A stretch of 26,448 nt of DNA, taken from positions 1-26,448 of the IMG/VR virus record IMGVR_UViG_3300021957_000248; one strand, written 5' to 3'. This document shows, piece after piece, positions 8,776 through 26,448 of this stretch (position 1 is the stretch's first letter; every line of letters starts with the position of its first letter). Both the position numbers and the translations under genes were made by a program. Source of the stretch: a virus. Under the pieces are notes generated by a model. The model made no database searches, was not told the DNA's origin, and saw nothing but the letters and a program-made list of their open reading frames with translations.

Positions 8776-10083
8776 CTACCCTACTGAAATAGAACGCATA
8801 CTATTAGAAGAGTCTAACCCAGAATAAGTTTTTTCTGGGTCACTAATAGAAGGTTTATATCTATGTACTTCTTCTCCGTCAGAGTCTAACCACACAAAAA
8901 CAGGTTCTTTCTTTGTACCCTCAACCGAGACTGTAGAAACTTCCTTAAACCCTTCTTGGCCTTTCATTAAATCATTATATTCCTTAGCGCGTCTTTTCGA
9001 TAAACCCTTACTAGATGTATATATAACTCTACCATTTTTATCTCTCATACGGTTTTCATTTTTATCTCTAGGTGACGCTAAGACAACAGAGGCTAATGAT
9101 CGCTTAGCAGCATCGAAATCTGGAGTATCTTGTGAGAGAGCATTTACAACACCTTCTGGTAAAGATCCTATATTTATATAAAGGGATAACACCCCAAACC
9201 TTTGATCTTCATTTAGACCTTCAAATACCTCTGAATATTGTTCCTTAGCGTTCTCATACAACCTGCTGTACACAGCTTTAGCTAAAACTCTACGATCTTG
9301 GTATTTCTCATCGTCTGGATTAAACCCTAAGCTTCTCGCTGTTTCTGGTAATACGCCAAAACCCAAAGTGTTAATACCTAAAGGATCTCTATGATCTTCT
9401 TCACCCTCTAATCCACCTATCTTATCAACAAAGAAGTTTGTAAAAGATAGGTTTTCTTCCGTGTCAGATCTACTTTCTGGCAAACCCATATCATCATCTG
9501 TCAGAGCTTCCGCTACAGGTCTATTCATAATACCTTTAGGCTTATCTAGCATCTCATTACTACGAGTATCTATACTAGGTGCATCAACAAGCGCTGGGCT
9601 GTCTCCCATCTCTGGCTGTCTACCTCTAGAGACAGGTGTGACCATAGGCTGAACTACATCCTGAGCTTCCCTAGCGTTATCTCTCATAGTCAGATCAGCA
9701 CCCTGCATATCAGCACCACTGAACATAGCAGTCCTAGCTGTCTCTGATAGTTGCCCTATAGGGGGTCTAGTTGCTTCCATCAGAGCGCTATTGATAGCTT
9801 CATTCATCTGCTCATCTTTGTAGAACATATCCAAGTTATCTAAGTAGTCTTGAATAAGGTTAGATTTTACAGGTGGGGCTTTCTTCATACTCTTCAAGTC
9901 ATACTGGTCAGCCTGTAGGCGAGCAAAGTCTTGTAGCATTGTTTGGTTTTCATCTTTAGCTTCTACAGGTTTAGGCTCTGTAGGTCTACTAATTATGGAC
10001 TCTGTGGGTGTAGTCTCTTCTTGCTCTGGAAGAACTTCTTGCAGAAAGCTTAGGGCATCAAAGGAAAATTGTACTTCGCTCAT
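8776..10083 (-). CDS. Lysozyme-domain virion protein or endolysin (435 aa)
   Basis: The C-terminal half carries a T4-lysozyme-like (GH24-type) muramidase domain at about residues 210-376. The probable catalytic set is E226 (GGLEGE), D233 (RDPLG) and T239 (NTLGFG), followed by LNEDQRFGVLSLYINIGSLP and GLSKRRAKEYNDLMKG, which fit the back part of that fold. The E-to-D gap is six residues instead of eight as in T4 lysozyme. The first 210 residues are polar and apparently unstructured, with a KPKGIMNR peptide at about 181-188. That long extension suggests a virion-associated lysozyme used at infection, although the holin candidate next door leaves an endolysin role open. I chose ATG 10083, one base from the previous stop and behind AAAGGGAC. 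The longer frame from 10296 overlaps the 701-residue gene and was rejected. Confidence 0.8.
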   Translation of the reverse strand: MSEVQFSFDALSFLQEVLPEQEETTPTESIISRPTEPKPVEAKDENQTMLQDFARLQADQYDLKSMKKAPPVKSNLIQDYLDNLDMFYKDEQMNEAINSALMEATRPPIGQLSETARTAMFSGADMQGADLTMRDNAREAQDVVQPMVTPVSRGRQPEMGDSPALVDAPSIDTRSNEMLDKPKGIMNRPVAEALTDDDMGLPESRSDTEENLSFTNFFVDKIGGLEGEEDHRDPLGINTLGFGVLPETARSLGFNPDDEKYQDRRVLAKAVYSRLYENAKEQYSEVFEGLNEDQRFGVLSLYINIGSLPEGVVNALSQDTPDFDAAKRSLASVVLASPRDKNENRMRDKNGRVIYTSSKGLSKRRAKEYNDLMKGQEGFKEVSTVSVEGTKKEPVFVWLDSDGEEVHRYKPSISDPEKTYSGLDSSNSMRSISVG

Positions 10084-10084
10084 T

Positions 10085-12190
10085 TTATCCGTCCCTTTCA
10101 CCAGTGATGGGGTTCCTACCTCTGAACCTATTACCCAAATAACCTTCGATAACGGCACTACCAAAATTACCCATAGCGCCCCAAAAACCAGAAGATTTAG
10201 CAGCACTTGCTGCCTGTTTAGCATCCTCTGATGATAGTTGTGCAATAGCAAGCTGGGTTGCTCTATCCGCATCATTGTTAGCAGACTGCCAAGCATAACT
10301 CATCATATCCCTAGTCTCTTGCATCATAGCACTAAACGCTAAGGCTGTCATATTAGTTGCAGCCGCCGCATCCGCACGATTAGCTTCATTGGTTGCTGCA
10401 GTATCTATAGTGGCAACTGTTTGATACCACGACGCATTAGCTTGCTCAATTATAAGCTGGTTACTAGCATTGAATCTTTCACGCTCATCTACCATCTTCT
10501 TATTGAACTGCTCAATAGCGTTTGTTTCACCAGCATTAAACCTATTCTGAGCATTAGCTTGTTCAGAGTTAAACATACTAAGTGATGAACTTAGATTATC
10601 ATAGAACTGGTCAACCTGTATCTTATTAGATGCGTTAAACTGTTTAGCCGCATTTTCAGCTGCTTGGTCAGACAACAAAGCATTAGCACGTTGTTGGGCC
10701 TTAAATACATTAGTCTGTTGCTCATTCTCTAAGTTCTGCATATCCATCTGTAGGAATGCATTAGCTTGCTGTATAGCCGCCTGTTGACGGTTATTTAAAT
10801 TAGCTGTGTCCATCTGAGTCATTGCTGCAGCATCAGACAACACCTTAGCATTAGCTGCATCTAAGTTAGCTAGGTCTACTGACTGAGCTAGACGGGCATT
10901 CTCTAAAGCAATCTGTTGCTCTGCAGTGAAGTTCATATTAGCTATATCAGAGATCTTAGCTGCATTAGCTACACGAGTCTGAAACTCTTGGTTAAACTCT
11001 AGGTTGAGAAACTCAGCACGTTGCTGTGCAGCAAACATAGCAGACTGTTGCTTATTAGATAAATTCTGTAACTCAAAGCTTGCTGCAGTCTTAGCATCCT
11101 GAGAAGCTATAGGAATAGCGCTCTCCATTGCCGCCTGTACAATAGCCATACCAGCCATACTAGAAGAACTAAGACCCCTAGCCGCTAGTGCCGCTGATGC
11201 CGCTCTCATAGCTCCTGCAGCCCAAGCTGGTGGGTTCTTACCTTCAAAGTCTTCCATAAGACCGCTTAACTGGCCTTGGACTGTAGCATCAGAAGAGGGT
11301 GCGCCTGTAGCCGCCTCAAAGCTTGTCTCTTCCTTTACACGATCCATATCGACAGAAGATCCTGAGATCATCTCACCGTCTTCTACCTTACGTTTATCAG
11401 GTGCCTTAACTGTTTGTGCGGCTGTAATCTGTGCTGCAGTTAAACCTAGTTGAGCTAACTCATCAGGGTTCATAGTCGCAGCTTTAGCTAGAGCCTCGTC
11501 ACTAGGTAGCCCAGTTGCTGCAGTTAAGGAATCTAAAGTTTTCTGAACCTCATCTGTAACTGTAACGGCTTCAACTGTAGGGGCGGATTTCTTTTCTGGG
11601 GCTACTACGTCTGCTTCTGTTTCTGCAGTTGTTGCAGTTGCCTTCTCAGCATCTCCAACCTCACCAGTGCCCTCAGCAATGGTTTGTTTATCATCTGTAG
11701 CTATCTTCTCTACGTCTGTTTTAGTAGTTAAAGACTCAGGATCATTTATGGCTGCAGATGTCATCTCCACATTAGAGGGCATCTCAGTAGTTTTAAATGA
11801 AGTCTCTGCACCTTGAAGAGCTTCTTGGGCATTTCTTAACCTAGTCTCAGCCTCAGTGACCTTTGTTACTAGAGATGCATCTTCTGGATTAGCGGCTTGA
11901 GCATCTCTAGCGGCCTGTAAAGCTTCTTGAGCATCAGCCACACGTTTCTGTGCGGCATCTAGTTTAGCTTGTCCACCCTCGTTAAAACCTTTTACATACA
12001 TACCATTATTAGCTTTAACTGGTTGAGGGTTTAAAACACGCATAGCTTGCTCTGTTGCATTACCTAGTTTAGCTTGATAAGCAGGATTAGATGCAATAAC
12101 TCTACGCTGTTCATCACCTTGCATACCAGCTAACTCAGGCACAATCTTGCCTCTCTGCTCTGGTGTAAATCCTAAGAAACGTTTTGCCAT
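10085..12190 (-). CDS. Ala/Gln/Asn-rich coiled-coil structural protein (701 aa), internal virion protein candidate
   Basis: The N-terminus (MAKRFLGFTPEQRGKIVPEL) is followed by a heptad-like coiled coil at about residues 75-135 and an acidic Thr/Glu/Ala-rich linker to about 300. From about 360 to 640 runs a long helical array with a loosely repeated unit of the form NLxNxQQxAxxxAQxRAxxL, seen for example as NLSNKQQSAMFAAQQRAEFL and NLNNRQQAAIQQANAFL. Near the end is KSSGFWGAMGNFGSAVIEGY, a hydrophobic segment that could touch membrane. No enzyme motif is visible. The repeats suggest a long rod or a multimeric channel. Its place before the lysozyme-domain gene parallels T7 gp14-gp16 order, so an ejected internal protein is the leading inference. 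AAGGAA precedes the ATG. Confidence 0.7.
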   Translation of the reverse strand: MAKRFLGFTPEQRGKIVPELAGMQGDEQRRVIASNPAYQAKLGNATEQAMRVLNPQPVKANNGMYVKGFNEGGQAKLDAAQKRVADAQEALQAARDAQAANPEDASLVTKVTEAETRLRNAQEALQGAETSFKTTEMPSNVEMTSAAINDPESLTTKTDVEKIATDDKQTIAEGTGEVGDAEKATATTAETEADVVAPEKKSAPTVEAVTVTDEVQKTLDSLTAATGLPSDEALAKAATMNPDELAQLGLTAAQITAAQTVKAPDKRKVEDGEMISGSSVDMDRVKEETSFEAATGAPSSDATVQGQLSGLMEDFEGKNPPAWAAGAMRAASAALAARGLSSSSMAGMAIVQAAMESAIPIASQDAKTAASFELQNLSNKQQSAMFAAQQRAEFLNLEFNQEFQTRVANAAKISDIANMNFTAEQQIALENARLAQSVDLANLDAANAKVLSDAAAMTQMDTANLNNRQQAAIQQANAFLQMDMQNLENEQQTNVFKAQQRANALLSDQAAENAAKQFNASNKIQVDQFYDNLSSSLSMFNSEQANAQNRFNAGETNAIEQFNKKMVDERERFNASNQLIIEQANASWYQTVATIDTAATNEANRADAAAATNMTALAFSAMMQETRDMMSYAWQSANNDADRATQLAIAQLSSEDAKQAASAAKSSGFWGAMGNFGSAVIEGYLGNRFRGRNPITGERDG

Positions 12191-13222: not shown

Positions 13223-14971
13223 TTAAGGTGTTAGAGCGCCATAAGCAGTTATATTGCCTTCTACAGTAAGGTTACCATTAGAATCTAGTTGCATCCTACA
13301 GGTGCCACCAGTAAGAAATTTTAGAGAAGTTCCTGACTGTTGAATTTCCCAAGTGCCTAAGTCAAGTTTAGAGGCTTGTACGGTTGAGTTAGGGTCAGTG
13401 GAAAAAGCACCAGTAGAACTATTATAAGATATACCGCCACTAGCTGATAAAGCCTCTCTAGCTGGAGTTGTAACTCTATCGTCTGTAAAATAAAGATTAC
13501 TAGAGCCTTCTGATAAACTATCAGTGTCCTGATTACTTAAATCACTAACTGTTCCAGTTACATCCCCGGTCAAATCTCCTTCGAAAGTAGAGGCGACAAC
13601 AGTACCTGCAGTACCAGTAAAAACTTCACTACTGTTTGTTGCATCTGGTATAAAGGTAAATTTACCTTCACTATCATCGAAACCAAAGAAACCTAGTTTA
13701 GCATCGGTTCCATTATGCCAGTTAAACTCAATACCACGATCTTTGTTATCATCTGCAGTAGGTGCGGTATCACCACCTAGTGTAAAAATAGGATCAGCTA
13801 CAGTTACAGTTGTACTGTTCACTGTTGTTGTAGTACCACCTACAGTAAGATCACCGTCTAATGTGAGATTATTAAAAGTTACATCATCAGTTGTACTTAC
13901 TGCCTGACCAATCGAAACCTCTCCATCAGTAATAGATACACCAGTTCCACCACTGAAATGCGCTCTAGTATCTGTAGCACTTGGCCCAGTGTAAGTAATA
14001 GCACCTGTACTACTGTCATAAGCTAAAGAACCGTCACCACCAGAGTCCGTAACAGAGATAGCACCTTTTGCTGCAGTATCTGCCCTAGTAGACGTATAGT
14101 AAAGATTAGTAGAACCTTCTGATAAATCATCAGTGTCGTGATTAGATAGACTTGAGACTGTACCAGTTAGTGCAGCATCTGACCCATCTGTACCATTCTG
14201 AAGAACTACGGTTCCATCTGTAGCTAATACGTCACCGTTTACGTTACCTGTTAGTAATCCTGAGAAACCACCGTTACCTGTCACTGTACCTGTAAAAGTA
14301 GAGGGGGGAGTTACAGCAAACAAACCAGTATTAGTAGCATTGCTAAAAGATACATTACCAGCAACAGTTAAATCGTTATCTAAAGTTGCAGCAAGTGTTA
14401 CATCTAGAGTACCTTGAAAGTCAGCATTAGCATCACTAAATACCACCGCATCTGTAGTACCAGATCTGATAGTCATATTGCCAGATGCATTATTTAAACT
14501 ACCAAAGTCAGAACCTGCATCTTTTAGAAGAATGTTACCGCCAGCTACATCTAATGTTATATCACCAGCGACATCTACAAGAAGGTTACCTGATGAAACA
14601 TCTAACTCATTATCTGTAAGGGTCATATAACCACTACTACCAGCTACTACAGTATCCCCATCAAGAGTAGCCGCTGAGACAGTAGAGCCAAATCTACCAT
14701 TTTTAAATCTGGCACTAGACGTTGAACCACCAAGATCTATAGTGTTATCACCATTAGGTAACACTTGAGTTGAGTTTACCGTAATTTGTCCTGCAGGGCC
14801 AACCTTCTCAATAGGCGCTCCTGAGTCAGATAAACTAGGATCGTGATTATGACCAGATGCACCAGTGAAAGCAGATTGAACAGCATTAAACTCAGCATTA
14901 ATGTCATCAGCATCAATAGCTTCACCATTAGCTATCTGACCTGTAGTATCTTGTCTTGTATATCCTGCCAT
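13223..14971 (-). CDS. Tail fibre protein (582 aa)
   Basis: The N-terminus (MAGYTRQDTTGQIANGEAID to ASGHNHD to GPAGQI) is a virion-attachment module common in short-tailed marine phages. The rest is Thr/Asp/Gly-rich beta repeat sequence of the trimeric-fibre type, with elements such as DGDTVVAGS, NTIDLGGSTSSARFKNGRF and DLTVGGTTTTVNST. A longer unit occurs twice: LSNHDTDDLSEGSTNLYYT and LSNQDTDSLSEGSSNLYFT, each followed by a YNSSTGA or YDSSTGA element. No chaperone or peptidase domain is seen at the C-terminus. It lies between tail tubular protein B and the glycine-rich adhesin, consistent with a fibre on the tail hub. AAGGAC precedes the ATG at good spacing. Confidence 0.85.
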   Translation of the reverse strand: MAGYTRQDTTGQIANGEAIDADDINAEFNAVQSAFTGASGHNHDPSLSDSGAPIEKVGPAGQITVNSTQVLPNGDNTIDLGGSTSSARFKNGRFGSTVSAATLDGDTVVAGSSGYMTLTDNELDVSSGNLLVDVAGDITLDVAGGNILLKDAGSDFGSLNNASGNMTIRSGTTDAVVFSDANADFQGTLDVTLAATLDNDLTVAGNVSFSNATNTGLFAVTPPSTFTGTVTGNGGFSGLLTGNVNGDVLATDGTVVLQNGTDGSDAALTGTVSSLSNHDTDDLSEGSTNLYYTSTRADTAAKGAISVTDSGGDGSLAYDSSTGAITYTGPSATDTRAHFSGGTGVSITDGEVSIGQAVSTTDDVTFNNLTLDGDLTVGGTTTTVNSTTVTVADPIFTLGGDTAPTADDNKDRGIEFNWHNGTDAKLGFFGFDDSEGKFTFIPDATNSSEVFTGTAGTVVASTFEGDLTGDVTGTVSDLSNQDTDSLSEGSSNLYFTDDRVTTPAREALSASGGISYNSSTGAFSTDPNSTVQASKLDLGTWEIQQSGTSLKFLTGGTCRMQLDSNGNLTVEGNITAYGALTP

Positions 14972-14983
14972 TTTAGTTTGTCC

Positions 14984-16525
14984 TTACTGTCTTTCGTTAG
15001 TTCTAAATTCTAACACTGCAGTGTCTAATTTAAATGTTGGGTTAGTAGAGTCATCTTCATACCTAATTGAAACCGTCTTACCACTACCTAGCGCAAATGT
15101 TTCATAAATCCTGTCAGCAAAACTACCATAGGTAGATGTATTGTAAATAGAAGTCGGAGCGCCATATAAAGATACTGCACCCGCCGTACTTACAAGAGTG
15201 CTTGTAGGGGGATCAATCGTAGTACCTTTTCCTTGACCAGCAAAATCATATGATAAGTTTATATCTAAACTAAGTACGGCTGTGGGTTCTACATAGGTAG
15301 TAACTCTGTAAAAAGTTTTTCTTATTTGAGGATCTTGAATGGGCATATAAGGAGATTCATAAACACACCTTATGTTTTCAGAGTCAAAACTAGATCCAAA
15401 CTCCATCTTATAAACGTATCCTGAGTCATTACCAAATACGATAGTTTCAGAGTTTCCAGTAATTTGGCTGTCAGATACGTTTACCTTCATCCCCCTTAAT
15501 GTAGCCCAAGCTATAGAGTCTGCGCCTTGAGCGGAAAACTTTGTTGCAAGTAGTCCGGGTGATAAGTCTGAGGGAGTAGCTGCGTTATAACCAAATATTC
15601 TATACTGGGCTTTTTCCCTTATAACTAAAGAGGAAAAATTATTAGCAAGTTTTAGAAAATACTCTGTATCTTTTTTAATAGGGGCAGATGCAACAGCTAA
15701 ACCGAAATCACCAATTCTATCAGTAGCAGATAATAACCTAATCCCATCAGAGGATAGGTACATAATATCTCCACCAACTTCTTGAATAGTCTCTTTTGCA
15801 GTACAACCAATATCCAGTGTTATAGGAGATAAATTAAAATCTGAAACACTATTACCGACAAGCTTATGTATAGACCTTTTAGTAAAAATTATAAGCTGAT
15901 CTCTAAATACTTTTAAGCCCTCTATTTCAGAACCTAGAGAAAGGCTACCAGCACCATTAGCTGCAGAAAAATCTGTTTCATCAAAGGGGGCGCTGAATAC
16001 AAGGTTAGCACCACTAGCAAAGAAAAAATGATTTTTAAAGAACTCTGTATCTGATGATGCAGCAATGTCTGGAGAGTTAGAAGCTGATAAAAAAGTAAAG
16101 GTGTCATCAGTGTCATTATAAATAGATGGAAAGTTAACTCCATCCACTAATATAGTTTTCTTTTTACCGCCCAATGTGACATCAACAAAACGAACTCTTT
16201 GGCCTAAAGAAGCAGCGGTTCCTCTTAAAGTCCACCCACTTCCTTGACTTTCGTAGTATTTAGTAACACCACCATCAGCCCTAGCCGCTAAAACAAAGTT
16301 AAGACCTAATACCTTAGTAAGTAAAACATCCCCTGACCCCGGTAAAACTGTTGTATCAAACTTAGTAAAACCTTTTACTTTAGAGTACCCCCCACTTGTA
16401 GATGGTTCAAAGTTCTCTAAAATAGAGGCTGATCCTACAGCATTCACACCCTGTTGAAGAGGGCTTAGGTTTGAAATAAGACCCCCTTTAAATTCTATAG
16501 GAAATGTTTGATACTGTATAGCCAT
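14984..16525 (-). CDS. Tail tubular protein B (T7 gp12-like nozzle)
   Basis: 513 residues, start overlapping the preceding stop (TAATG). The opening FPIEFKGGLISNLSPLQQG, then GSASILENFEPSTSGGYSKV and KGFTKFD, is the recognisable start of podovirus nozzle proteins, which form the distal tail tube. The body is beta-rich, with LFxKxSIHKLVG-like and DIMYLSSDGIRLLSATDR segments that fit the propeller-like part of the nozzle. T7 gp12 is longer (about 790 residues), so this is a compact version. It directly follows the gp11-like gene, the classic order. Local base composition is low in GC (about 27% in one counted 60-base line near 15601). Confidence 0.87.
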   Translation of the reverse strand: MAIQYQTFPIEFKGGLISNLSPLQQGVNAVGSASILENFEPSTSGGYSKVKGFTKFDTTVLPGSGDVLLTKVLGLNFVLAARADGGVTKYYESQGSGWTLRGTAASLGQRVRFVDVTLGGKKKTILVDGVNFPSIYNDTDDTFTFLSASNSPDIAASSDTEFFKNHFFFASGANLVFSAPFDETDFSAANGAGSLSLGSEIEGLKVFRDQLIIFTKRSIHKLVGNSVSDFNLSPITLDIGCTAKETIQEVGGDIMYLSSDGIRLLSATDRIGDFGLAVASAPIKKDTEYFLKLANNFSSLVIREKAQYRIFGYNAATPSDLSPGLLATKFSAQGADSIAWATLRGMKVNVSDSQITGNSETIVFGNDSGYVYKMEFGSSFDSENIRCVYESPYMPIQDPQIRKTFYRVTTYVEPTAVLSLDINLSYDFAGQGKGTTIDPPTSTLVSTAGAVSLYGAPTSIYNTSTYGSFADRIYETFALGSGKTVSIRYEDDSTNPTFKLDTAVLEFRTNERQ

Positions 16526-17208
16526 TAGTAATGTACTCTAGTGTCTCTTACGTAGTTTGTTCTGTTTATAAAAGTACTTCTTAAATGTTTAATACCCATA
16601 AGGAACTTTTGTTGTAAGGCATTAGCTGCTTGCATATCACCCTTAAACATAAACAAGTAGTACATAGCACCGTCTACAATAACGTGTCTAAAGTACTCTG
16701 GTAAAGAAGGTACATCAGTAGAGTTAACTAAATCGACAGGTAGTCTGTAATACTCATAAAAGATAGTGTAAGCTTTGTCTGGAGCAGGTACTAACCCATA
16801 CTCTCTACTAGGTGTTTGAAACACATAACGTGGCATACCTTTTAACTCAGAGTTATACTCGTAATCTGCGTATTTGTCAAGATATTCTTCGTATGAAATC
16901 AATTTTAATTTAACTGTTTCATTACCCAATGTAGCACTTCTCGCTATTCTAAAGCTATCCCAATCAACAGTCTTAGCATCCCCGGGAGTGGAATACCTAA
17001 CAATGTTAGCTGTAAGTGTCTCTTCTTCCTCAGAGTGATTAAAAGGCCACTCATATTCGTGTTGATTTATAAAGTTAATTGATGAGTTAACAGAGTCCTT
17101 AATAGCGGAGTAATAACCAGTAACTGTATCAAAGTTAGCTGTTGTAAGCTCTACCTCATTAGACCTTCTGTTTATGTCGTTAACTATCCCTAAAAAGTCG
17201 TATGCCAT
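16525..17208 (-). CDS. Tail tubular protein A (T7 gp11-like adaptor)
   Basis: 227 residues, similar in size to T7 gp11 (196). It has the typical opening (MAYDFLGIVNDINRRSNEVE), an aromatic-rich middle (NQHEYEWPFNH), the signature FEYYRLP-like segment YTIFYEYYRLPVDL and the helix PEYFRHVIVDGAMYYLFMFK. Proteins of this family form the ring joining portal to tail tube. The gene ends in a TAATG overlap with the tail tubular protein B gene, a pairing that reinforces both calls. Its start lies one base beyond the stop of the 105-residue adaptor gene. Confidence 0.88.
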   Translation of the reverse strand: MAYDFLGIVNDINRRSNEVELTTANFDTVTGYYSAIKDSVNSSINFINQHEYEWPFNHSEEEETLTANIVRYSTPGDAKTVDWDSFRIARSATLGNETVKLKLISYEEYLDKYADYEYNSELKGMPRYVFQTPSREYGLVPAPDKAYTIFYEYYRLPVDLVNSTDVPSLPEYFRHVIVDGAMYYLFMFKGDMQAANALQQKFLMGIKHLRSTFINRTNYVRDTRVHY

Positions 17209-17538: not shown

Positions 17539-17649
17539 TTACTTAGTAATGTAGATATACCTATCAAAAGGTGTATCATCTTTTTCTACGAATACTGTTC
17601 TAAGTTCTTCTACTATAACAACAGTTCTTTCATCAGATGTACTTGGCAT
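17539..17649 (-). CDS. Small conserved-context protein (36 aa), unknown function
   Basis: A 36-codon frame exactly fills the interval between two structural genes. Its ATG overlaps the stop of the 1025-residue gene (TAATG), and its stop lies 11 bases before the next start, a gap that carries the ribosome-binding site of that gene. The product begins MPSTSDERTVVIVEELRTVF and ends in DRYIYITK. It reads as beta strand, charged turn, beta strand, with no membrane span. It is easily missed because it is short. I do not recognise a family. The perfect spacing and coupling make it a likely real gene. Confidence 0.66.
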   Translation of the reverse strand: MPSTSDERTVVIVEELRTVFVEKDDTPFDRYIYITK

Positions 17650-20600
17650 TAAGCAGCCCTCGAAATATAAACAGTTCTTGCTCTGTCATAAGCATTCTTA
17701 AACTCTTCAAAGTTAAATCCATCTGTAGACAGTGTTATAGAACCTCTACCCACAGTAACTAACGGTAAGGTACTTAGTTGTACAGATGCGTTTATTACAC
17801 CCTTTACTTCATCAGATGCATTGAAAGAAGAGTTTGCAGAAGAAAGTACTTTTGTAATATTTACAATTACTGCACCAACTTCAAGTAAAGAGGAAACTCC
17901 AGAAGGACTTGCTTGACCTGTAAAAGCTGAATCAATATTAAAGGCTGTAGCAGAACTTACACCTGTAATGATAGCAATAGAGTTTACATCAAGTGTAGGA
18001 GCAACTTGTGAAGCAGTAGATACAGAGCTAATACTTATGCTACTGTTATTAGTTGCAGCAAGAGAGTTAACACTTGCTGGGCTTGATACACCGTTAATTA
18101 GTGTGCTAACTAATGATTCAAGTGTATTAATCTCTGAACTAGAGCTTACACCAGTAAGGGGTACACCGATTGATATTGGTGTAAGAGTAACTTCAGATTC
18201 AACTTTTTCAAGTAATACCCCTAGTACAACGGGGTTAATATCTAAACTAGTGCTTATGCTAGATAAGGGTGATCCAACACCAGTATTAACTTGACCTACA
18301 GATACTTGAGAAGATACCGACAGTGAGGGTGGTATAATTTCATCAATATCAATTATTAAACTAGGGGTTTGTAATGTAGATGTAACTGTTGATAAAGTTA
18401 GAGATAAGTTTTCTTTTAAGTCGTTAATACCTACACTTGAAGAAACATCATTTAAATCAACTATTACAAGTTTAGAAATACCTTGTATAGAGGCTTGAGA
18501 TGATACACTATTAATACTTACAGAGGAGCTAACTGAAAGATCATCTGTAACTATGTTAGAAGATGAACTACTTAAAGTTAAACTTAAATTTTCAACAACC
18601 GCTCCTAGAGAAACCCCTAGTAAAGATGTTGGAAGAAATACTGTAGAAATTTTATCAACATCTTCAATATCTGTTTGTACAGGTACTGAGATGATTGTAG
18701 GGTTACTTGAGTGAACTTGAGTTACAGTTTGTAAATCTGAACTAGTAGTAACACTAATAAGATCTATACTAGAATTTACGTTGAAACTGTCAATATTACC
18801 AACTTGACCTGTAAAGGTAGCCGAGTCAAGAGTAACAGAAGAGTCTACGAAAAAAGATAATGGTGAAACAGCTACACCAGAATTTACTTTGTGAGGTGCT
18901 TGAAAAGGGCTATCAAAAACAAGTGTATCAGCTGCTGTTGCGTCATTTGTGAAACCGCCAGTAGCTGCCCAAGTAGGGGTAGTCCTTTGATTGAGGACTA
19001 AACTCCTATTGAAATTTGAAGGAGCGTTTATGTTAAAGTTATTTATTAAGCCTTGGAAAGTGTTTCCAGCATAACCGCCTACAGTAAAATCATCTAAGAA
19101 AAATTGATAGGAGCTTGAAGTGTAAGGCCCATAGCTTATAGTAAGTAATTGACTTTGATAGTGTACAAGACTATTAGAGTCATCATACAAGGTTATGTAG
19201 TGACGCTGACCACTCTGATATACGTGTAATCTGTACCAAGTGTCTACAGATATACCACCAGACGGGCTAATAGTAAACGAACTAGTCGCTGTCCTAAGTA
19301 ACTGGTTACCTAACTTAACGTGAGAGCTAATAGAGTTTCCGTTTAGGTAAGCGTAGATTCTCTGACTAGTCCAACCTGACTTAGAACCTTGTGAATCAAA
19401 TATCCAAGTTGTACCAGTAGTATAATTAGAATCTAGTTTAAAATAAAGTTCGACTCCAATAGAAGAACTCTGAATCTGTGTAGATCTTGTATAATTAACT
19501 CCACCAGAAGTATCACCAGAATAGTATAAATTAGGTGTAGTATCTAAGAGAACATCAGCGTTTATAGTTTCGATACCAGAAACATTATTTACTTCAGAGG
19601 TAGTATTAACACCTACTGTAGAAGCAATATTAACAACTTCTGTATCTAAACTGTTTGGTATTTGAGTAGATGAAGATACTGTTGATAAGTCTGTGTTGGC
19701 AGTACCTGATGCGGATATATCAACAAATGTTTGTGAAGTAACTTTAACTAATGTTGGGTTACTAGAGGCTGTTTTAGTAACAACCCCTATTTCAGAAACA
19801 CTTGAGTCTGAGGATAGCTCAACACTAATTGAACCGCCTATATTTCCCGAAATAAGGGCAGAGTTTACATCTTCAACAGTTTTATTTGAACTAGCAGATA
19901 ATGTTAAAGAAGAAACACTTAAAGTTACTGAAACTGCTACTAGGTGTTCTGAAGGGCCAATTTGAATTGAGCCTACTTGTGTAGTTGAGTTTAGTGTTGA
20001 AAGGGTTTCGTTAGATGTCGCATTTGAGTTAACTGAATTTACAACAACTGAAGAAGAGTCTCCAGTTAAATCTATGCCGCTGTTTGGTATAACAGAGTTA
20101 ACTTGTACTGAAGAAAATGCAGAAGTTAGTACCTGTAAGTCAGTGACTGTTACAGATATATTATTAATGCTAGAACCAGAAGAAACACCGCTTAGAACAT
20201 CTTGCTCTGAAGTACTTGTGGAGACAGTTCCTATTTGTGAGATTGAGGAAACTGAGTTTAGAAGTTGTTGGTCTTCACTAGTTCCTTGTGGTGATGAAAC
20301 TTGACTTGTTGTATTTACTGAAGAGAGTGGGATTATTATATTAGTAACTATATTCCCAACTTGAGAGGATGTAGATACAGATGTTACTAACTGCGCATCT
20401 TCTGATTGTACTCCTAAAGAGTTGATCTGAGAAGAGGAGGAAACAGAGGAAAGAGTCTCTGAATCCGTTACAGTTAAAGATAAAGTTCCTAACGCAGTGG
20501 AACTAGATACAGACACTAATGACTCAGTATCTACTACAGATGTTGAAACAGAACCTACTGCAGTTACACTAGAAACAGATGTTAAAGTTTTACTGTCTAC

Positions 20601-20726
20601 TACAGTAAGATTTAAACTACCTGTAGAACCTTGACTGTTTACCCCTGACAAACTAATAGACGATGAAACTATTAAGAGTCCATCGTCTGCAAGAGTTGTT
20701 GATGATAGGGGGCTAAAGCCTAGCAT
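17649..20726 (-). CDS. Giant repeat fibre-like protein with embedded lectin-like (LamG/ConA) domain (1025 aa)
   Basis: The N-terminus MLGFSPLSSTTLADDG is a phage structural leader type. Residues about 40-215 consist of a 22-residue repeat (consensus D-x3-L-x-S-V-S-S-x-S-x-I-[GN]-x-[VL]), with the conserved VSS position at 51, 73, 95, 117, 137, 159, 181 and 203. Weaker copies continue on both sides of a concanavalin/laminin-G-like domain at about 395-570. That domain contains YYSGD, VELYFKLDSNYTTGTTWIFD, DTWYRLHVYQSGQRHYITLY and FQGLINNFNI, a fold usually used for sugar binding. A C-terminal piece (VTVGRGSITLSTDGFNFEEF) differs from the repeats. Composition is Ser/Thr/Val-rich with almost no Cys or Trp outside the lectin part. 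A beta-solenoid fibre or surface decoration that displays a glycan binder is inferred. AAAAGGAACG precedes the ATG. Confidence 0.8.
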   Translation of the reverse strand: MLGFSPLSSTTLADDGLLIVSSSISLSGVNSQGSTGSLNLTVVDSKTLTSVSSVTAVGSVSTSVVDTESLVSVSSSTALGTLSLTVTDSETLSSVSSSSQINSLGVQSEDAQLVTSVSTSSQVGNIVTNIIIPLSSVNTTSQVSSPQGTSEDQQLLNSVSSISQIGTVSTSTSEQDVLSGVSSGSSINNISVTVTDLQVLTSAFSSVQVNSVIPNSGIDLTGDSSSVVVNSVNSNATSNETLSTLNSTTQVGSIQIGPSEHLVAVSVTLSVSSLTLSASSNKTVEDVNSALISGNIGGSISVELSSDSSVSEIGVVTKTASSNPTLVKVTSQTFVDISASGTANTDLSTVSSSTQIPNSLDTEVVNIASTVGVNTTSEVNNVSGIETINADVLLDTTPNLYYSGDTSGGVNYTRSTQIQSSSIGVELYFKLDSNYTTGTTWIFDSQGSKSGWTSQRIYAYLNGNSISSHVKLGNQLLRTATSSFTISPSGGISVDTWYRLHVYQSGQRHYITLYDDSNSLVHYQSQLLTISYGPYTSSSYQFFLDDFTVGGYAGNTFQGLINNFNINAPSNFNRSLVLNQRTTPTWAATGGFTNDATAADTLVFDSPFQAPHKVNSGVAVSPLSFFVDSSVTLDSATFTGQVGNIDSFNVNSSIDLISVTTSSDLQTVTQVHSSNPTIISVPVQTDIEDVDKISTVFLPTSLLGVSLGAVVENLSLTLSSSSSNIVTDDLSVSSSVSINSVSSQASIQGISKLVIVDLNDVSSSVGINDLKENLSLTLSTVTSTLQTPSLIIDIDEIIPPSLSVSSQVSVGQVNTGVGSPLSSISTSLDINPVVLGVLLEKVESEVTLTPISIGVPLTGVSSSSEINTLESLVSTLINGVSSPASVNSLAATNNSSISISSVSTASQVAPTLDVNSIAIITGVSSATAFNIDSAFTGQASPSGVSSLLEVGAVIVNITKVLSSANSSFNASDEVKGVINASVQLSTLPLVTVGRGSITLSTDGFNFEEFKNAYDRARTVYISRAA
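20085..20597 (-). repeat. Protein-level 22-residue (66-base) repeat array
   Basis: Eight near-consecutive units lie in the N-terminal part of the 1025-residue protein, with one unit shortened to 20 residues. Examples are DSKTLTSVSSVTAVGSV, DTESLVSVSSSTALGTL and DSETLSSVSSSSQINSL. The underlying DNA copies have diverged, so this is a protein repeat and not a DNA satellite or CRISPR. Confidence 0.85.
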
Positions 20727-20737
20727 TTACGTTCCTT

Positions 20738-21058
20738 TTAAGAACTTACTGCAGTCGCCCAAGCGTTCACAAATGCTGTTACTTCATCATTCGTCATAGC
20801 ACTTGGTGTTTCTGAGGGGTTATCTTCACTTAATTCTAAAATTGGGTAGCGAGAATGCAGATCGAGAACGTAAGTAACCAGTTCTGACTGCGTATAGTTT
20901 GTAACGGTATCAGGAACCCAATACGCTCGATCAGCTTCATCAGGCGTGTAACCAATGTAAGTTTTATTGTCTGGATCAAAAAAGTGACCCGGATTTTCGA
21001 CCCACGGTGGTGTTGTGTTTCCCATATGAGTTCTATGTAATTTATACTTCAGAAACAT
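20738..21058 (-). CDS. Uncharacterised marine-phage tail-region protein (106 aa)
   Basis: The protein contains PPWVENPGHFFDPDNKTYIG, then YTPDEADRAYWVPDTV and a C-terminal helical part ending in FVNAWATAVSS. I recognise this as a type of small protein found near tail fibre genes of marine phages, but with no known function; a fibre assembly factor is conceivable. Two starts are possible. The ATG at 21064 sits directly against AAAAGGGG, too close for initiation, while the ATG at 21058 has that site about five or six bases upstream, so I chose 21058. The gene overlaps the end of the 276-residue gene by 17 bases. Confidence 0.7.
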   Translation of the reverse strand: MFLKYKLHRTHMGNTTPPWVENPGHFFDPDNKTYIGYTPDEADRAYWVPDTVTNYTQSELVTYVLDLHSRYPILELSEDNPSETPSAMTNDEVTAFVNAWATAVSS

Positions 21059-21872
21059 CTTCATCCCCTTTTGGCTTTTCGAGCTGCAGCATATACTCTG
21101 GATTCACAAAATCAGCTTTTCCAAAAATTCTTTCGGCAGTAGCATCTACATTTTTGTGATACTTTTCAGCCATTGCATCCAAGAAATCTTCAAGATCGTT
21201 TGAGTGTAACAATTCGCCTTGTGCAATGCGTTGACCACACACCTGTACATACCCGCTTACCTCAGTAAAACCGATCTGCGGATGCACTCCATATTGCTGC
21301 ATATATTCAATCGTTGAAGTTGATGCTCGACCCCCATTCAACAAATTTCGGTACATAAGCTCAAAGCCACGCCTTACGTGATGCCGCTTCTCTTCAGCCT
21401 CAAAAGAAAGCTCATCCCATTCATCAATACCGTGCTTTTCTTTCAGATTATCGTAGGCGTCACACAGCGTAGCAATGTCTTTGATGGAACCATTAATTTT
21501 ATGCTCTAACGTCATTAAAGAATGGCGCTTCATTCGCAACTTGGCCTCTGACACGATATCGTCTTGGCCCTCTAATTCTAGAATTTCTTCACGGCACTCA
21601 GCGTGACTGACTTGCGCTTCATTCAGAGCCATTTTACGAGTTTCAACCTCTGCAGCAACTTGTCGAAGCATTCGCATTGGCGAGTGCCCGTTAAGCATAG
21701 TCAGGGTCATTAAACTCAGTGTTGTTTGAGAGTTCTGACGATCAAAGGCTCGTGTTGCCTGATCTATTTCTGGTAGTTTTTCAGCAACCCTAGCTGCAGC
21801 TACCTGATTAATATTTTCAGATGCCTCAACGGGCAAAGAAAACGTGATTGGTTTTGTAACTATATTTGTCAT
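21042..21872 (-). CDS. Helical phage protein of unknown function (276 aa)
   Basis: A short beta-like opening (MTNIVTKPITFSLPVEASE) is followed by long charged helices: AARVAEKLPEIDQATRAFDR, a heptad-like VAAEVETRKMALNEAQVSHA region (about 73-100) and KLRMKRHSLMTLEHKI. This makes much of residues 35-165 likely coiled coil. The C-terminal third (GVHPQIGFTEVSGYVQVCGQ) looks globular, and the protein ends in an acidic tail, KPKGDEDVSEV. No enzyme motif is visible. It stands between kelch-like fibre genes and the 106-residue protein, so a fibre chaperone or connector is a reasonable guess only. Preceded by AAGGAAAAC. GC content (about 50% in a counted line near 21361) is above that of the neighbouring 1025-residue gene. 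Confidence 0.68.
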   Translation of the reverse strand: MTNIVTKPITFSLPVEASENINQVAAARVAEKLPEIDQATRAFDRQNSQTTLSLMTLTMLNGHSPMRMLRQVAAEVETRKMALNEAQVSHAECREEILELEGQDDIVSEAKLRMKRHSLMTLEHKINGSIKDIATLCDAYDNLKEKHGIDEWDELSFEAEEKRHHVRRGFELMYRNLLNGGRASTSTIEYMQQYGVHPQIGFTEVSGYVQVCGQRIAQGELLHSNDLEDFLDAMAEKYHKNVDATAERIFGKADFVNPEYMLQLEKPKGDEDVSEV

Positions 21873-21902
21873 TTGTTTTCCTTGAAGTTTTTAGTCTAGT
21901 AA

Positions 21903-23018
21903 TTACGAAGGGAACCCCGAACAAGCCCCCAGACTCTGCAACGTAGCATTGTAAGTTCCAAAAGATGTGGCATTCCCAGTGGTATCTATGGTGACTATTT
22001 GTTGAGTATTCAAATACGCCGTTGTTGATTTCCCAGCAACCCAACAAGCTTTAGTACTGTTACAAGCAGAACTGCTAAACCTCATTCCTGCAAGCAGATC
22101 ACCAAAGTCAGTGGCGTTTCCAGCACTAGCGGGATTAATGTATTCGATAGTATTGGTATAAGTAATTCCATCATTACCACCAGCGTGAAGAACACGACTA
22201 CTATTTCCACAAGCCGAATTTTGTCCTTGTTGATACCTAACTGAAGTAAGATCCCCCCAGTCAATTGCACTAGAAGCTGTGGCAATAGTTACATAATCTA
22301 TAGTATTTACACGACCGCTAGAGGCGTACCCGCCAAAAAAGAAACCTTTAGTGCCGTCAGAAGCACCGCAAGCATTACTCCTAGTCTGAGTTAGGAGGCC
22401 GCTCCTAACACTAGCGTTTCCAGTAGTTGCTATTGTAATTTCTGAAATCCAGCCGTTATATGTAGTAGCACCATCCCACATTGCAAAGATTGTGGTAGTG
22501 CCATCAGATGCAGAAGAAACCGTTTGAATACTTGTCAGATCGCCAAAATCGGTAGAATTTCCCGGCGTAGAGATTGTAACATAATCGATGTTGTTAATGT
22601 AATTGCTTATTATACCCCCTGCAAATATCCCTCGACTACCACTTGATGAGCCTGAGACTCCATTTCTAGCACTTGTTAAAGATCCAAATGAGGTTGAGCC
22701 ACCAGAACCAGTTAAATCTATGTAACGAATTGCAGATGTGGGACCGTTACCACCCGCTACAAGCATCCTATCGCCAATATGCGACAGTGGTGGTGGCGGG
22801 GGTACTGTAGTAATCGCTCGAAATTCACCATTAAAATACTGATAAAGTTTTTCATTGCCAGTATCCCACCAATAGTCGCCGTTTGCATTCCCGCTACTAG
22901 GCTCAGTTCCACTGGCAGTGTAATTTTGTGTAGGTGAGGTACCACCGACTAAGATACCATTTTCAAGGTCAATCGCTGTGCCGTTATCTTTAATGGTGTT
23001 TACTTTTAATGTACTCAT
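21903..23018 (-). CDS. Kelch-like tail fibre / receptor-binding protein, paralogue 1 (371 aa)
   Basis: Residues 1-75 form an attachment module (STLKVNTIKDNGTAIDL to GDYWWDTGNEKLYQYFNGEF) ending in a PPPPP linker. Residues about 85-371 carry six repeats of about 48 residues, marked by FGSL, FGDL, SGLL, WGDL, FGDL and FGTY near positions 111, 158, 205, 254, 305 and 353. Each is preceded by a I-x-Y/E-V-T-I-x-T-x-G-N-A strand and followed by an A-C/S-D-G-T-K-G-F-F-F-G-G-type strand. This is the layout of a beta-propeller of the kelch type, a common receptor- or glycan-binding head. The gene is the last of three tandem paralogues and its start overlaps the previous stop (TAATG). Ligand unknown. 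Confidence 0.8.
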   Translation of the reverse strand: MSTLKVNTIKDNGTAIDLENGILVGGTSPTQNYTASGTEPSSGNANGDYWWDTGNEKLYQYFNGEFRAITTVPPPPPLSHIGDRMLVAGGNGPTSAIRYIDLTGSGGSTSFGSLTSARNGVSGSSSGSRGIFAGGIISNYINNIDYVTISTPGNSTDFGDLTSIQTVSSASDGTTTIFAMWDGATTYNGWISEITIATTGNASVRSGLLTQTRSNACGASDGTKGFFFGGYASSGRVNTIDYVTIATASSAIDWGDLTSVRYQQGQNSACGNSSRVLHAGGNDGITYTNTIEYINPASAGNATDFGDLLAGMRFSSSACNSTKACWVAGKSTTAYLNTQQIVTIDTTGNATSFGTYNATLQSLGACSGFPS

Positions 23019-24172
23019 TATGAATGCGCTCCTGATGTAGCACCTATGCCGTACCCCGCCTCAGCGGTAGTACCCCAAAGTGAGGCATTTCCAGTAGTAT
23101 CTATTGTAACTCTATGAGCGTAATTTTGGAATTGAACTGAAGCATTTAGGCCTTGAACCCAAATTGCGTGTGTATCGTTGTTCGTAGAGCCAGTATACCA
23201 AAGAGCGTTTGCTAAATTACCAAAACTAGACGCATTACCAGCACTTGCTGGATTTATATAATCAATAGTTGCAGTATAATTTCCTGATGAATTAGTTCCC
23301 CCACCAATAAGTATACGGCTACTGGTTCCACAAGCGGAGTTGCCGCCCGTATCTTTTCTTGCCGTAGCAAGATTTCCCCAGTCTGAGGCATTACCATCCG
23401 TAGCAATAGTCACGTAATCTATTTCATTAATAGCAGTAGAACTAGAAGCCGTTCTCCCACCAAAGAAGAAACCCTTAGTACCATCAGAAGCACCGCAACC
23501 ATTACTTTTGGCCTGAGTTAAAGTGCCAGACCAAGCGGTGGCGTTGCCAGCGGTATCTATGGTGACTTCTTGGATTAAACTCGTTTTGTTATTATCATTC
23601 ATAGCATAAATAGCTTTGTTGCCATTAGATGCTGAAGCAATGGTATAAGAAACCTCTGTCAGATCACCAAAGTCAGTAGAGTTTCCAGTCGAGGCTATTG
23701 TGATGTATTGTATTGTATTAACGACCCCTGAGCTTGTCGCTGCGCCCGCAAATAGACCTCGACCCCCACCAGAAGCACCAGTAACATATGCAGAATCTGC
23801 TAATAAATTACCGAAAGTGTTAACAGTCGCTCCAACATCTAAGTCGTAGTACTGTATTCTATTGTCTCGGCCAGCGCTTACAAAACCTAACGTAAACAAT
23901 GCTCTATCACCAAACCAGACAGGAGGAAGTGGATTTGCCGTTCCACTGCCAACAACTCGCTTCCACTCACCCCCAGCCCGATAGTCTAAATACCTAAGCG
24001 TTGGTTGATACCAAACATCACCATCGCTGGGGCTAGTGGGTTCAGTGTCACTATTAGTAAATGCGCCGCCACCAAGGCCTTGCAAACTTCCTCCAACCTT
24101 AATTCCGTAGGTGAAATTAGCAGCACCTGTGCCAGCTAAATTGTTAATTTTATCTACTGTAATATCAGACAT
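23018..24172 (-). CDS. Kelch-like tail fibre / receptor-binding protein, paralogue 2 (384 aa)
   Basis: It has the same architecture as its two neighbours: a leader ([20 protein letters not shown]), a GDVWYQPTLRYLDYRAGGEW attachment element near residues 50-73, then about six propeller-like repeats marked by FGNL, FGDL, WSGT, WGNL, FGNL and LWGT. It shares GASDGTKGFFFGG and the INPASAGNA segment with paralogue 1. The encoding DNA is also visibly similar there (compare 22325-22380 with 23455-23510). The leader differs from that of paralogue 1 and resembles that of paralogue 3 (ITVDKINNLAGTGAANF versus [17 protein letters not shown]). It is joined to both neighbours by TAATG overlaps. Receptor-binding role inferred from the fold and tail context. 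Confidence 0.8.
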   Translation of the reverse strand: MSDITVDKINNLAGTGAANFTYGIKVGGSLQGLGGGAFTNSDTEPTSPSDGDVWYQPTLRYLDYRAGGEWKRVVGSGTANPLPPVWFGDRALFTLGFVSAGRDNRIQYYDLDVGATVNTFGNLLADSAYVTGASGGGRGLFAGAATSSGVVNTIQYITIASTGNSTDFGDLTEVSYTIASASNGNKAIYAMNDNNKTSLIQEVTIDTAGNATAWSGTLTQAKSNGCGASDGTKGFFFGGRTASSSTAINEIDYVTIATDGNASDWGNLATARKDTGGNSACGTSSRILIGGGTNSSGNYTATIDYINPASAGNASSFGNLANALWYTGSTNNDTHAIWVQGLNASVQFQNYAHRVTIDTTGNASLWGTTAEAGYGIGATSGAHS

Positions 24173-25326
24173 TACGCAGCGGCCCCCGACATTGAATCAG
24201 TATTACCCCGTTCTTTGGTTAGATCCCCAAAATCGGTTCCGTTACCAAGAGTGTCTATTGTGACATACGTAATCTCATCTCTTTTATTAGGATAATTCGC
24301 AGTACCACCAGAATAACAGGCTCTAGTTTCATTACACGACATCCCACCCAACCAAGTGTCATCACCCATATCCCCAAAGCTAGATGCGTTACCTGCAGAA
24401 GATGTGTCGAAATAATATATTTCAGAAAATTCAACAAAACCTTGCTTTCTGCCCCTACAATGCAAAACCCTAGTATCGTTACCACAGGCTTTTGTGTTCA
24501 TACAAGCGAGTGCAAGATCACCCCAATCAGTAGCGTTACCCGTTGTTTGTATTACAATAGAACAAATTCGGTCAGTCAGGCCGTTATTGCCGTTCCCGCC
24601 CATAAAGAAGCCTCTAGTGCCATCACTAGCCACTCCCATTGCTTGATAATCGTTGTCTGTAATGTCTCCAAAATCAGCAGTGTTTGCAGAGGATTCTATA
24701 CTTTTATACTCAATACGGTTATCGGTGCTTGTAAATCCAGAAACAAACATTCGGTCTGCATCATTGTCTGCACAAGTGTCTTGTTTAGCTACTCCTATAT
24801 CACCATACTGACTTGAATTACCTAAAGTGGCAGTAAGAATTGTCCGAATATTCGGAGTCAAAGTACCTTGTATATTTCCAGAGATAATAAATCCTCGACC
24901 AGATCCCGCCGTACAAGAACTAGACGAGATATAATGTGCATCATCTCCAAAGTCAGAAGCATTACCAAGGGTGGTAAAATCCCAATAATCAATGGTATTA
25001 CCATAATTGCTAGTACTTGAATACTCAACTGCGCTATATCCCGGCCCCTGTATTCCCCTATCGCCGTAATGCGAAGGTAAAGCGGGTGGTGAAGCTCCCA
25101 AAGTAACCGTTTGCCACTCACTGTTTGCATAGATCATTAATTCGCTGTTTGTAGTATCCCACCAAACTGCACCATCACTAGGGCTTGATGGCTCAGTACC
25201 ACTACTCGTAAAACTGGAAGTACCTATACTGCCTAGAGCAACACCACCCACGGTTGGGGCGGTAGTGAAGTTGGGTGCGCCTGTTCCAGCGGCATCAACG
25301 ATTGTATCTACACGAATTTCGGTCAT
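24172..25326 (-). CDS. Kelch-like tail fibre / receptor-binding protein, paralogue 3 (384 aa)
   Basis: This is the first of the three tandem paralogues in transcription order. The leader [20 protein letters not shown] and the element [20 protein letters not shown] form the attachment part. About six repeats follow (FGDD, YGDI, FGDI, WGDL, FGDM, FGDL), with strands such as [16 protein letters not shown] and [11 protein letters not shown]. Its repeat faces differ from those of paralogues 1 and 2 more than these differ from each other, for example [11 protein letters not shown] and [10 protein letters not shown]. That would suit a different ligand. Its start overlaps the end of the cupredoxin-domain gene by four bases (ATGA). 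Confidence 0.8.
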
Positions 25327-26243
25327 AGGATTACGTGCCTTCCCCCAGCCGCAATAGTTAAAGTTACGCCGCTGGCAATAGTAAGCGGCCCAACTGTTAG
25401 AGCGCTTTCTGTGGCTCCTACTGTGGTGTTAGTCGTAAGAGTGCGTGAGGCCACGTTTACTGTGCCAAACCCTGCCGAAGAAGTTATTGTGCCGAATTGA
25501 AGAGTTCCGCTGCCAGTTGTTTTTAAAACCTGGTTTGCACTCCCGTCAGACGTAGGGAGCGTAAAAGTAGACACAAAGCTTTGCAGGTTTGCATCATAAG
25601 CCAAGGCGTCTGTACCAACCACCGGCGGTCTTACAACGATTGCCCCGCCCATGCCTGAGTGGTTTGCGCAGTAGTAATAAAGCGCTGGGCAATCCTGTTC
25701 TAGCTTCACCTCAATATAGGCCCCTGCAGTGCCCTGTGTGCCCACTTCGGTGATGCCGGTAGTGAATTGCGAACCGCTGTTGTGAGTGCCGTCTGAGGTT
25801 GTGCTGAAGCGGAAAGGATGACCTGATATGGAACTTGCCGAAACATCAAAACGATAAGTCACCGAAGGCACCAAGGTCAGAGTTTGATTGGCAGTTCCAT
25901 CGACCACAAACTCACCGTTCAGAACGATGACATTGATGTCTGCGTAAAGGAGATCCAAATCATTGGCAGAGGCGCTGATAAAGACTTTGGCATTGCCAGA
26001 CAGGTTCAACAAACTGCCTGTACTTGAACTCGTTAATGTACGGGAAAGCGTACTCCCTGAATGGGTATATACACCTGTAGATACTTCCCAGGCGCCGCCG
26101 GTATCCTCAATTACCAGCCGAACCGTGTGCCCATCTAAAGAAGAAGGCACGGCCTGATAGCCAGTCTCCGCAGAGCCTAGCGTAACCGTGCCTGTGCCTG
26201 TCGTAGAGGTCGAAACCTTTACACGATCTGCGAACCGAGCCAT
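25323..26243 (-). CDS. Tail protein with cupredoxin-like (type 1 copper) domain (306 aa)
   Basis: Residues 1-100 ([20 protein letters not shown] to GYQAVP to [18 protein letters not shown]) are a phage tail leader module. Residues about 105-205 read as a cupredoxin: a beta start ([20 protein letters not shown]), H142 in SGHPFRFS, and YYYC192ANH195SGM198GG. The H...C-x2-H-x2-M set has the same C/H/M spacing as amicyanin, and all four copper ligands are present. The C-terminus ([20 protein letters not shown], ending GGRHVIL) resembles other phage fibre ends. GC content is clearly higher here than in the left part (57% in a counted line at 25681). AAGGAAC stands about six bases before the ATG. 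Copper binding is predicted from ligand residues only; the domain may have kept the fold without metal. Confidence 0.75.
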
Positions 26244-26252
26244 TTAGGTTCC

Positions 26253-26448
26253 TTAATCAAATTTGATAACGAAATCGCCAATACCGAAGCGGAGAATATC
26301 GCCCGAGTTCACCGTGCGGGCAGTGGTCAAAGCGCCGGTCAGGAACGGGAATCTGGCGGGGTTATAGCCATCACCTGACCCTGAACCATACTCACTTACT
26401 CGAAATGAACCGCCAGAATTATTATAGACAGTGCTGTGATAACCACGA
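26253..26448 (-). CDS. C-terminal end of a phage structural protein, cut by window edge
   Basis: An open frame enters from the right edge and ends in TAA at 26253-26255; 64 residues are visible. The segment reads HSTVYNNSGGSFRVSEYG, then YNPARFPFLTGALTTARTVN and SGDILRFGIGDFVIKFD. It is beta-rich, with the polar Gly/Ser character of tail or fibre proteins. No start is visible and the family is not identified. It is followed nine bases later by the cupredoxin-domain gene and shares that gene's high GC content (about 62% in a counted 60-base line at 26281). Confidence 0.7.
   Translation of the reverse strand, partial: RGYHSTVYNNSGGSFRVSEYGSGSGDGYNPARFPFLTGALTTARTVNSGDILRFGIGDFVIKFD

Follow-up and report, generated by a model that had tools for sequence, protein, structure and literature searches.

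The window, by which we mean the whole stretch of 26,448 bases analyzed here, is a linear record of an uncultured marine virus of bacteria (IMG/VR record IMGVR_UViG_3300021957_000248, positions 1 to 26,448). It carries three related genes side by side, K1, K2 and K3, each encoding a short N-terminal leader followed by a kelch-type propeller, hereafter the head. Why does a phage keep three such genes in one array, and what do the two parts of their products do? We consider it likely that K1 to K3 form a tail receptor-binding cassette of a short-tailed HMO-2011-type marine phage, made up of three docking leaders, none able to stand in for another, and heads that can be swapped.

Three overlapping genes encode leaders and kelch-type propellers

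A preliminary description of this DNA, made from its letters, proposed three adjacent genes of leader-plus-propeller design that overlap head to tail. The open reading frames (ORFs) confirm this arrangement, as each junction within K1-K2-K3 is a one-base overlap (TAATG) and K1 overlaps the upstream gene UP by 4 bases. The two peptides that were quoted as shared, GASDGTKGFFFGG and INPASAGNA, are found exactly in K3 and K2 (paralogues 1 and 2 of that description, which numbered from the low coordinate). Its third paralogue, K1, is indeed the divergent copy, since K2 and K1 share 36% protein identity (E = 6.2e-43) versus 48% for K2 and K3 (E = 3.6e-75). The claim of similar DNA holds to a lesser degree than was implied: identity equals 54% for K2-K3, 48% for K1-K2 and 49% for K1-K3, the longest exact words in common measure 18, 10 and 13 nt, respectively, and the best-matching stretch between copies spans 115 nt at 74% (K2 versus K3). 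Within the window, K1, K2 and K3 are old paralogues, and their duplication is not recent.

Searches against Pfam, PHROG and PDB sequences did not usefully name K1, K2 or K3; their identity came from the fold. The Pfam kelch models reached their cut-offs on none of them (K3 scored 16.1 and 10.8 bits against thresholds of 50 and 20.1, K1 gave nothing, and K2 gave nothing of kelch type), and an HNH match on K2, below cut-off and inside the repeat sequence, was taken as chance. An AlphaFold2 model, made for K2 only among the three, has a mean predicted local distance difference test (pLDDT) score of 90.5, with propeller blocks mostly at 90 to 98 and a poorly resolved leader (blocks of 49 to 92). 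The model consists of six four-stranded blades. It superposes on Keap1 (1x2j; Z, 38.2; root mean square deviation [RMSD], 2.1; 283 residues) and on designed six-bladed kelch proteins (Z, ~38; RMSD, ~2), and Foldseek retrieves KLHL12 (E about 1e-18). For K1 and K3, a 300-residue propeller profile matches once each, as read on the identical copies in the related locus L027.

Six repeats are also present in the consensus of a 90-protein alignment that includes the window. With strands and loops defined as for kelch proteins (excerpts of PMC4668279), the repeat consensus GG...IDY...DFGDL places the Gly-Gly at the end of strand B, the Tyr in strand C and an aromatic residue in strand D, and the C-terminal strand closes blade 1 in the K2 model. 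These are the kelch hallmarks, with the strand D aromatic of the array proteins being mostly Phe, not Trp.

Three leader classes are kept together

Related loci, denoted by L numbers, were collected through ANC, a conserved gene downstream of the array. A first ANC query gave 123 viral loci and a second one 133, with 80 kept in each case. Across these relatives, the number of propeller genes upstream of ANC ranges from none to seven, and nearly every array gene holds one leader and one propeller. Read side by side, the leaders, about 75 to 80 amino acids (aa) long, are of three types. On a tree they form three clades, named classes A, B and C, among which L076 and L077 are ambiguous. Average-linkage clustering of the leaders gives no three clean groups at k = 3; three large groups emerge at k = 7 (34, 31 and 29 members, plus small ones). 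The array of the window reads A-B-C.

Leaders were assigned to a class at a profile score of at least 60 bits with a margin of at least 25 bits, and weaker leaders were uncounted. An array was considered spanned when it extended from a UP-type gene upstream through ANC or DN, the small gene past ANC, which left 26 partial arrays uncounted. After arrays with an identical 120-base head stretch were merged (L023 with L029, and L030 with L031), there were 54 distinct arrays with at least one class leader, including 28 spanned ones. All three classes are present in 26 of the 28 spanned arrays, class A likewise stands first in 26, and the classes occur in equal numbers in 20 (15 of 1:1:1 and 5 of 2:2:2), as counted with class profiles that were trained on most of these arrays. 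The five spanned arrays outside class-model building (L168, L172, L176, L185 and L266) hold the three classes in equal numbers without exception. Where arrays are doubled (e.g., AABBCC and AABCBC), every class is doubled in all five cases, not just one. If, as we propose, the leader classes are not interchangeable, a complete cassette would need one leader of every class, or a pair from each.

Two simpler rules were rejected. First ORF counts had pointed to copy numbers in multiples of three, which fails because 4, 5 and 7 occur. Array position as the property that leaders encode was abandoned in favor of leader class because the order varies (ACB in L136).

Leaders also occur with other heads or with none. 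Class A leaders stand without a head in L154 (82 aa; its stop overlaps the start that follows) and in L184 (77 aa), as does a class C leader in L266 (75 aa). A different propeller-like repeat is borne by all three A-B-C leaders of L185 and by two leaders of L266 (A and B). Pfam SMP-30/gluconolactonase or lactonase propellers score above cut-off in L185 B and L266 A, and the other two L185 heads have weak Pfam hits only. A DN-like protein directly follows this non-kelch array of L185. The class C head of L071 is SBBP-like, below the Pfam cut-off, and that of one class A protein in L195, without a Pfam match, looks lectin-like by eye. Since heads are replaced or absent while leaders remain, the leader is the constant part.

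These counts could also arise if an old gene triplication had simply been kept by descent, with products that act alone and equal numbers that mean nothing. Common descent links most of the spanned arrays (ANC is 59 to 95% identical to that of the window among 54 aligned relatives), and 8 of the 28 are unequal (ACBB in three, ABCBC, AABCB, ACABBBC, and CB in two); for the CB arrays (L119 and L257), a weaker class A match lies in an ORF of 493 to 495 aa about 6 kb upstream (read in L119 and L121). We nevertheless regard this explanation as unlikely, as all three classes stay despite gene duplication and head replacement or loss, leader-only genes persist in three loci, and the five doubled arrays double every class.

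Heads are exchanged between leaders

Leader and head trees were built from 98 proteins, after the removal of L048 (a duplicate of L047) and of 10 of the 109 array proteins that lacked a clear class. For every one of the 98 leaders, the closest counterpart in a different genome is of the leader's own class (within-array class shuffles: mean, 35.5; maximum, 57), and residues 41 to 80 alone give 97 of 98 (shuffles, about 35 to 36). Among heads, this is true for 60 of 98 (shuffles: mean, 34.4; maximum, 51). The class test used no identity filter, in contrast to an earlier positional test that left out pairs whose heads shared at least 60% identity. The memory of class that heads retain comes through recent descent. 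Across the head tree, class changes 37 times, at least 19 of which persist after collapsing branches below 0.95 support and 10 at below 0.99, and classes are mixed in 14 of 35 well-supported small head clades.

The DNA locates the exchange. Between gene 1 of L023 and gene 1 of L029, identity is 92 to 100% in intervals starting in the first 180 bases and ~40% past base 240. The window and L032 align in register through all three leaders, and the K2 head aligns to gene 1 of L032. Across the leader, the class B gene K2 is ~50% identical in DNA to gene 1 of L032, a class A gene, and identity climbs to 100% in the head. A similar breakpoint pattern separates L037 gene 4 (class B) and L039 gene 5 (class C). 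This sequence evidence shows heads passing from one class to another, with the DNA breaking sharply where leader meets head. The preliminary description had envisaged recombination between neighboring copies. Recombination is seen between genomes and between classes, mostly as head replacement, and not as crossing-over among K1, K2 and K3 of the window, whose sequences differ too much for it.

One face of the head is variable

In Keap1, the substrate surface is formed by the DA and BC loops (excerpts of PMC4668279). For the array proteins, we placed the limits of loops and blades manually, guided by the predicted strands, and remote loci (L081, L089, L090, L091, L102, L103 and L105) and near-identical contigs (L028, L038, L051, L052, L057, L059 and L078) were left out beforehand. 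Across 109 array proteins, the mean column entropy equals 3.29 bits in the BC and DA loops (85 columns) versus 1.49 bits in the AB and CD loops (68 columns), and the excess is present in all six blades. The ratio of nonsynonymous to synonymous substitution rates (dN/dS) in 19 near-orthologous pairs is 0.53 for the BC and DA loops, compared to 0.21 for the AB and CD loops and 0.18 for the strands. One face therefore shows relaxed or diversifying change, with dN/dS not above 1. This agrees with the earlier proposal of gene duplication followed by diversification of the ligand face: relatives do not keep one-to-one orthologues, the face carries excess change and the copy number varies.

A likely tail receptor-binding cassette

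In the cassette that we propose, each N-terminal leader would dock its protein at its own site on the virion tail, the C-terminal propeller would bind a host-surface ligand through its one variable face, and heads would be cargo, exchanged by recombination at the leader-head junction. The whole resembles a modular set with which the virus could alter the bacterial surface it recognizes. The sequence of UP, tail-fiber-like and directly beside the array, suggests the tail as its location, and UP itself is probably an adaptor or shaft. A class C leader gave weak matches (E, 2e-3 to 0.9) in cyanophage proteins often annotated as tail fiber or tail collar, which are no more than suggestive; one weak match is a protein of Marine virus AG-345-F15 without annotation.

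The array lies between a coat protein gene and the tail genes. The former, encoding the major head protein, is seen upstream in L028 (2248-3318, identified by profile phrog_267 in L028 only), a relative 99.7% identical to the window across 12.5 kb. This position, together with a weak minor head protein profile match in 3 of 90 members, would suit proteins that decorate the capsid, or belong otherwise to the outside of the virion, instead of binding receptors at the tail. We hold such a role to be improbable, given that UP, next upstream, matches tail fiber families and that a variable ligand-type face and changes in copy number fit host recognition.

The preliminary description further suggested a hetero-oligomeric head. 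The joint retention of three leader classes supports this indirectly. We tentatively entertain, as a possibility that falls short of probable, an obligate A:B:C heteromer in which one recognition unit would present three different heads at once. The leaders would then act as a socket set into which kelch heads, other propellers and lectin-like heads fit, and complete sets would be doubled to 2:2:2. Uncultured marine phages would thereby possess a combinatorial device for recognizing hosts. The proteins might otherwise build three separate spikes, each a homotrimer of a single leader class, at different sites or in a branched tower, with no mixed trimer. In the branched system of the Ackermannviridae, N-terminal docking domains are retained and receptor modules change places between spike types (excerpts of PMC8432352), the propeller protein of phage phi11 is a homotrimer (excerpts of PMC4901313), and unequal arrays arise more easily without fixed mixed trimers, while the joint doubling of classes fits the separate and the mixed form alike. 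We take separate spikes as a serious possibility, not far below an even chance. Because they are a form of the proposed cassette that differs in the oligomer only, this estimate overlaps with our confidence in the cassette as a whole.

Several observations weigh against the cassette. The clean leader tree is partly so by construction, as the classes were defined on leaders, and the array counts are not independent trials because the arrays are related by descent. Eight spanned arrays are unequal, and ANC-carrying phages with a single propeller gene and an unrelated leader exist (e.g., L034 and L040), so the triad is not required by all. ANC was not found beside the L185 array. Heads retain some class signal, which makes their exchange frequent but not free. 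Finally, tblastn gave K1, K2, K3 and ANC no match beyond chance among 50,697 phage isolate records, and hence the proteins are not directly tied to a virion.

The single propeller genes of L034 (6871-8001) and L040 (6889-8001) have a fourth leader type and lie behind a fiber-like gene of 900 to 929 aa; they may represent a single-component version of this device. On another contig (IMGVR_UViG_3300042308_000967, 72.7 kb, covering L024 and L025), ~14 kelch-type propeller genes flank an ANC-like gene, and their leaders are nearly all outside classes A, B and C.

No support for a switch between heads

The suggestion that the head is switchable found no support. Several alternative heads in tandem are what a phase-variable or diversity-generating system, selecting which copy is used, would draw on. 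However, reverse transcriptase (PF00078) was found in 0 of 27 records, mostly fragments (the control was positive in 3 of 14 genomes), as was resolvase (PF00239) in 0 of the 27; tyrosine recombinases were not searched for. No convincing inverted repeats occur in 20700-26448, where one weak pair, 20 nt at 85% and 2.3 kb apart, lies inside the coding region, and promoter and terminator scans stayed at chance level. All array copies are co-oriented on one strand, and the overlap of co-oriented genes suggests that K1 to K3 are made together through joint translation. We therefore judge a switch to be very improbable.

Genomic setting

The array is flanked by UP on one side and by the conserved genes ANC and DN on the other (Table 1). 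The predicted fold of ANC (pLDDT, 78) has no PDB match at an E value of ≤0.001, and DN is possibly a fiber-assembly protein. The match between L028 and the window breaks off within UP, where L027 and L028 encode a protein of 234 aa instead of 306 aa; the adaptor-like gene UP is also exchanged between relatives.

The HMO-2011-like assignment goes by the tail gene, since the tail protein encoded at 16525-17208 is 63.6% identical to that of Roseobacter phage CRP-345 and 44.5% identical to that of Puniceispirillum phage HMO-2011. A membership criterion for HMO-2011-type phages involves the DNA polymerase (excerpts of PMC8528129), and the window is a 26.4-kb fragment. A genome collection yielded two loci, L168 in a Porticoccaceae metagenome-assembled genome and L169 in an alphaproteobacterial one; the binning of phage contigs says little about their host, and we claim none.

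Elsewhere in the window, a Ser/Val-rich repetitive protein of 1025 aa is encoded after DN (17649-20726, minus strand). Its relatives are few (13 phmmer hits in the fetched loci), and the length of its slot differs among relatives. A tRNA-Ile (GAT) is predicted at 14863-14941 (minus strand), where a large ORF for a structural protein begins (13223-14971), and may be a real gene or a false positive. The ORFs at 8776-10296 and 10085-12190 (minus strand) overlap by 212 bases, and the first probably starts further in.

Table 1 Coordinates of the K1-K3 array and its neighbors in the window
Feature	Position	Strand	Basis
UP, upstream of array, 306 aa, tail-fiber-like	25323..26243	-	PHROG tail fiber families, 1.1e-14 and 7.6e-14
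K1, class A, leader and kelch-type propeller, 384 aa	24172..25326	-	ORF; class A leader 127 bits, margin 46; propeller 303 aa
K1 leader (class A), about aa 1-80	25087..25326	-	Leader clades; DNA homology to L030 and L032 stops ~230 nt into gene
K1 propeller head	24175..25062	-	Profile match
K2, class B, leader and kelch-type propeller, 384 aa	23018..24172	-	ORF; class B leader 116 bits, margin 60; AlphaFold2 model
K2 leader (class B), about aa 1-80	23933..24172	-	Leader clades; L029 and L032 homology blocks stop ~240-250 nt into gene
K2 propeller head	23021..23908	-	AlphaFold2 model, superposition; 90% DNA match to L032 gene 1 (class A) head
K3, class C, leader and kelch-type propeller, 371 aa	21903..23018	-	ORF; class C leader 122 bits, margin 74; propeller 296 aa
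K3 leader (class C), about aa 1-71	22806..23018	-	Leader clades; L032 homology block stops ~210 nt into gene
K3 propeller head	21906..22772	-	Profile match
ANC, conserved, downstream of array, 276 aa, helical	21042..21872	-	Relative encoded in 123/127 candidate stretches of viral contigs
DN, small conserved gene past ANC, 108 aa	20738..21064	-	63 phmmer hits in loci then fetched

Implications and comparison with known systems

Receptor-binding proteins decide the bacterial range of a phage and are mostly unnamed in abundant uncultured marine phages. The leader classes provide a sequence tag for finding receptor-binding heads of any fold in metagenomes, non-kelch and headless proteins among them, and the common junction marks where heads are exchanged in nature. 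Why there are three classes, and why they are doubled in step, is now a testable structural question. The literature searched, in the text accessible, holds no report of such arrays, and one may exist elsewhere.

HMO-2011 itself shares the related tail protein with the window and has a row of small genes annotated as tail fiber, which, unlike the array, lie downstream of the tail genes. In the accessible text of papers on HMO-2011-type phages, kelch is not mentioned in PMC6918029, nor are kelch or propeller in PMC9038755. Kelch proteins are known from the giant myophage vB_PcaM_CBB, which resembles the window in having three of them, CBB_550, 552 and 554, with close gene numbers and one found in the virion (excerpts of PMC5259590, which describe neither leaders nor exchange). 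The receptor-binding protein of Staphylococcus phage phi11, a baseplate protein, has a beta-propeller as its probable host-binding head, although with five blades, a helical stem and a homotrimeric state (excerpts of PMC4901313).

In fold, the heads are closest to the kelch domains of Keap1 and KLHL proteins, with which they share six blades (Z, ~38 over ~280 residues; RMSD, ~2), the Gly-Gly ending strand B, closure of the ring by the C-terminal strand and a ligand face of BC and DA loops. They differ in their viral origin, ~10 to 14% identity, the absence of a BTB domain and the strand D Trp, which is usually Phe.

In organization, the nearest parallel is the branched tailspikes of the Ackermannviridae, in which the N-terminal domains for assembly stay conserved and receptor modules pass from one spike type to another (excerpts of PMC8432352 and PMC11414711). 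T4 gp10-like XD domains are a further mark of that system; the leader in the K2 model is too poorly resolved to show its fold. As in that system (e.g., TSP1-4 of CBA120), several receptor-binding proteins would be encoded per gene cluster, with conserved N-terminal parts and a fixed swap junction. In contrast, the array belongs to an HMO-2011-like phage, has leaders of ~75 to 80 aa and kelch propellers in place of beta-helix receptor modules, and holds three classes mostly in equal numbers and in doubled sets. The conserved N-terminal parts and swapped modules that characterize the Ackermannviridae are thus present here by analogy, not homology, with docking as the putative role of the leader.

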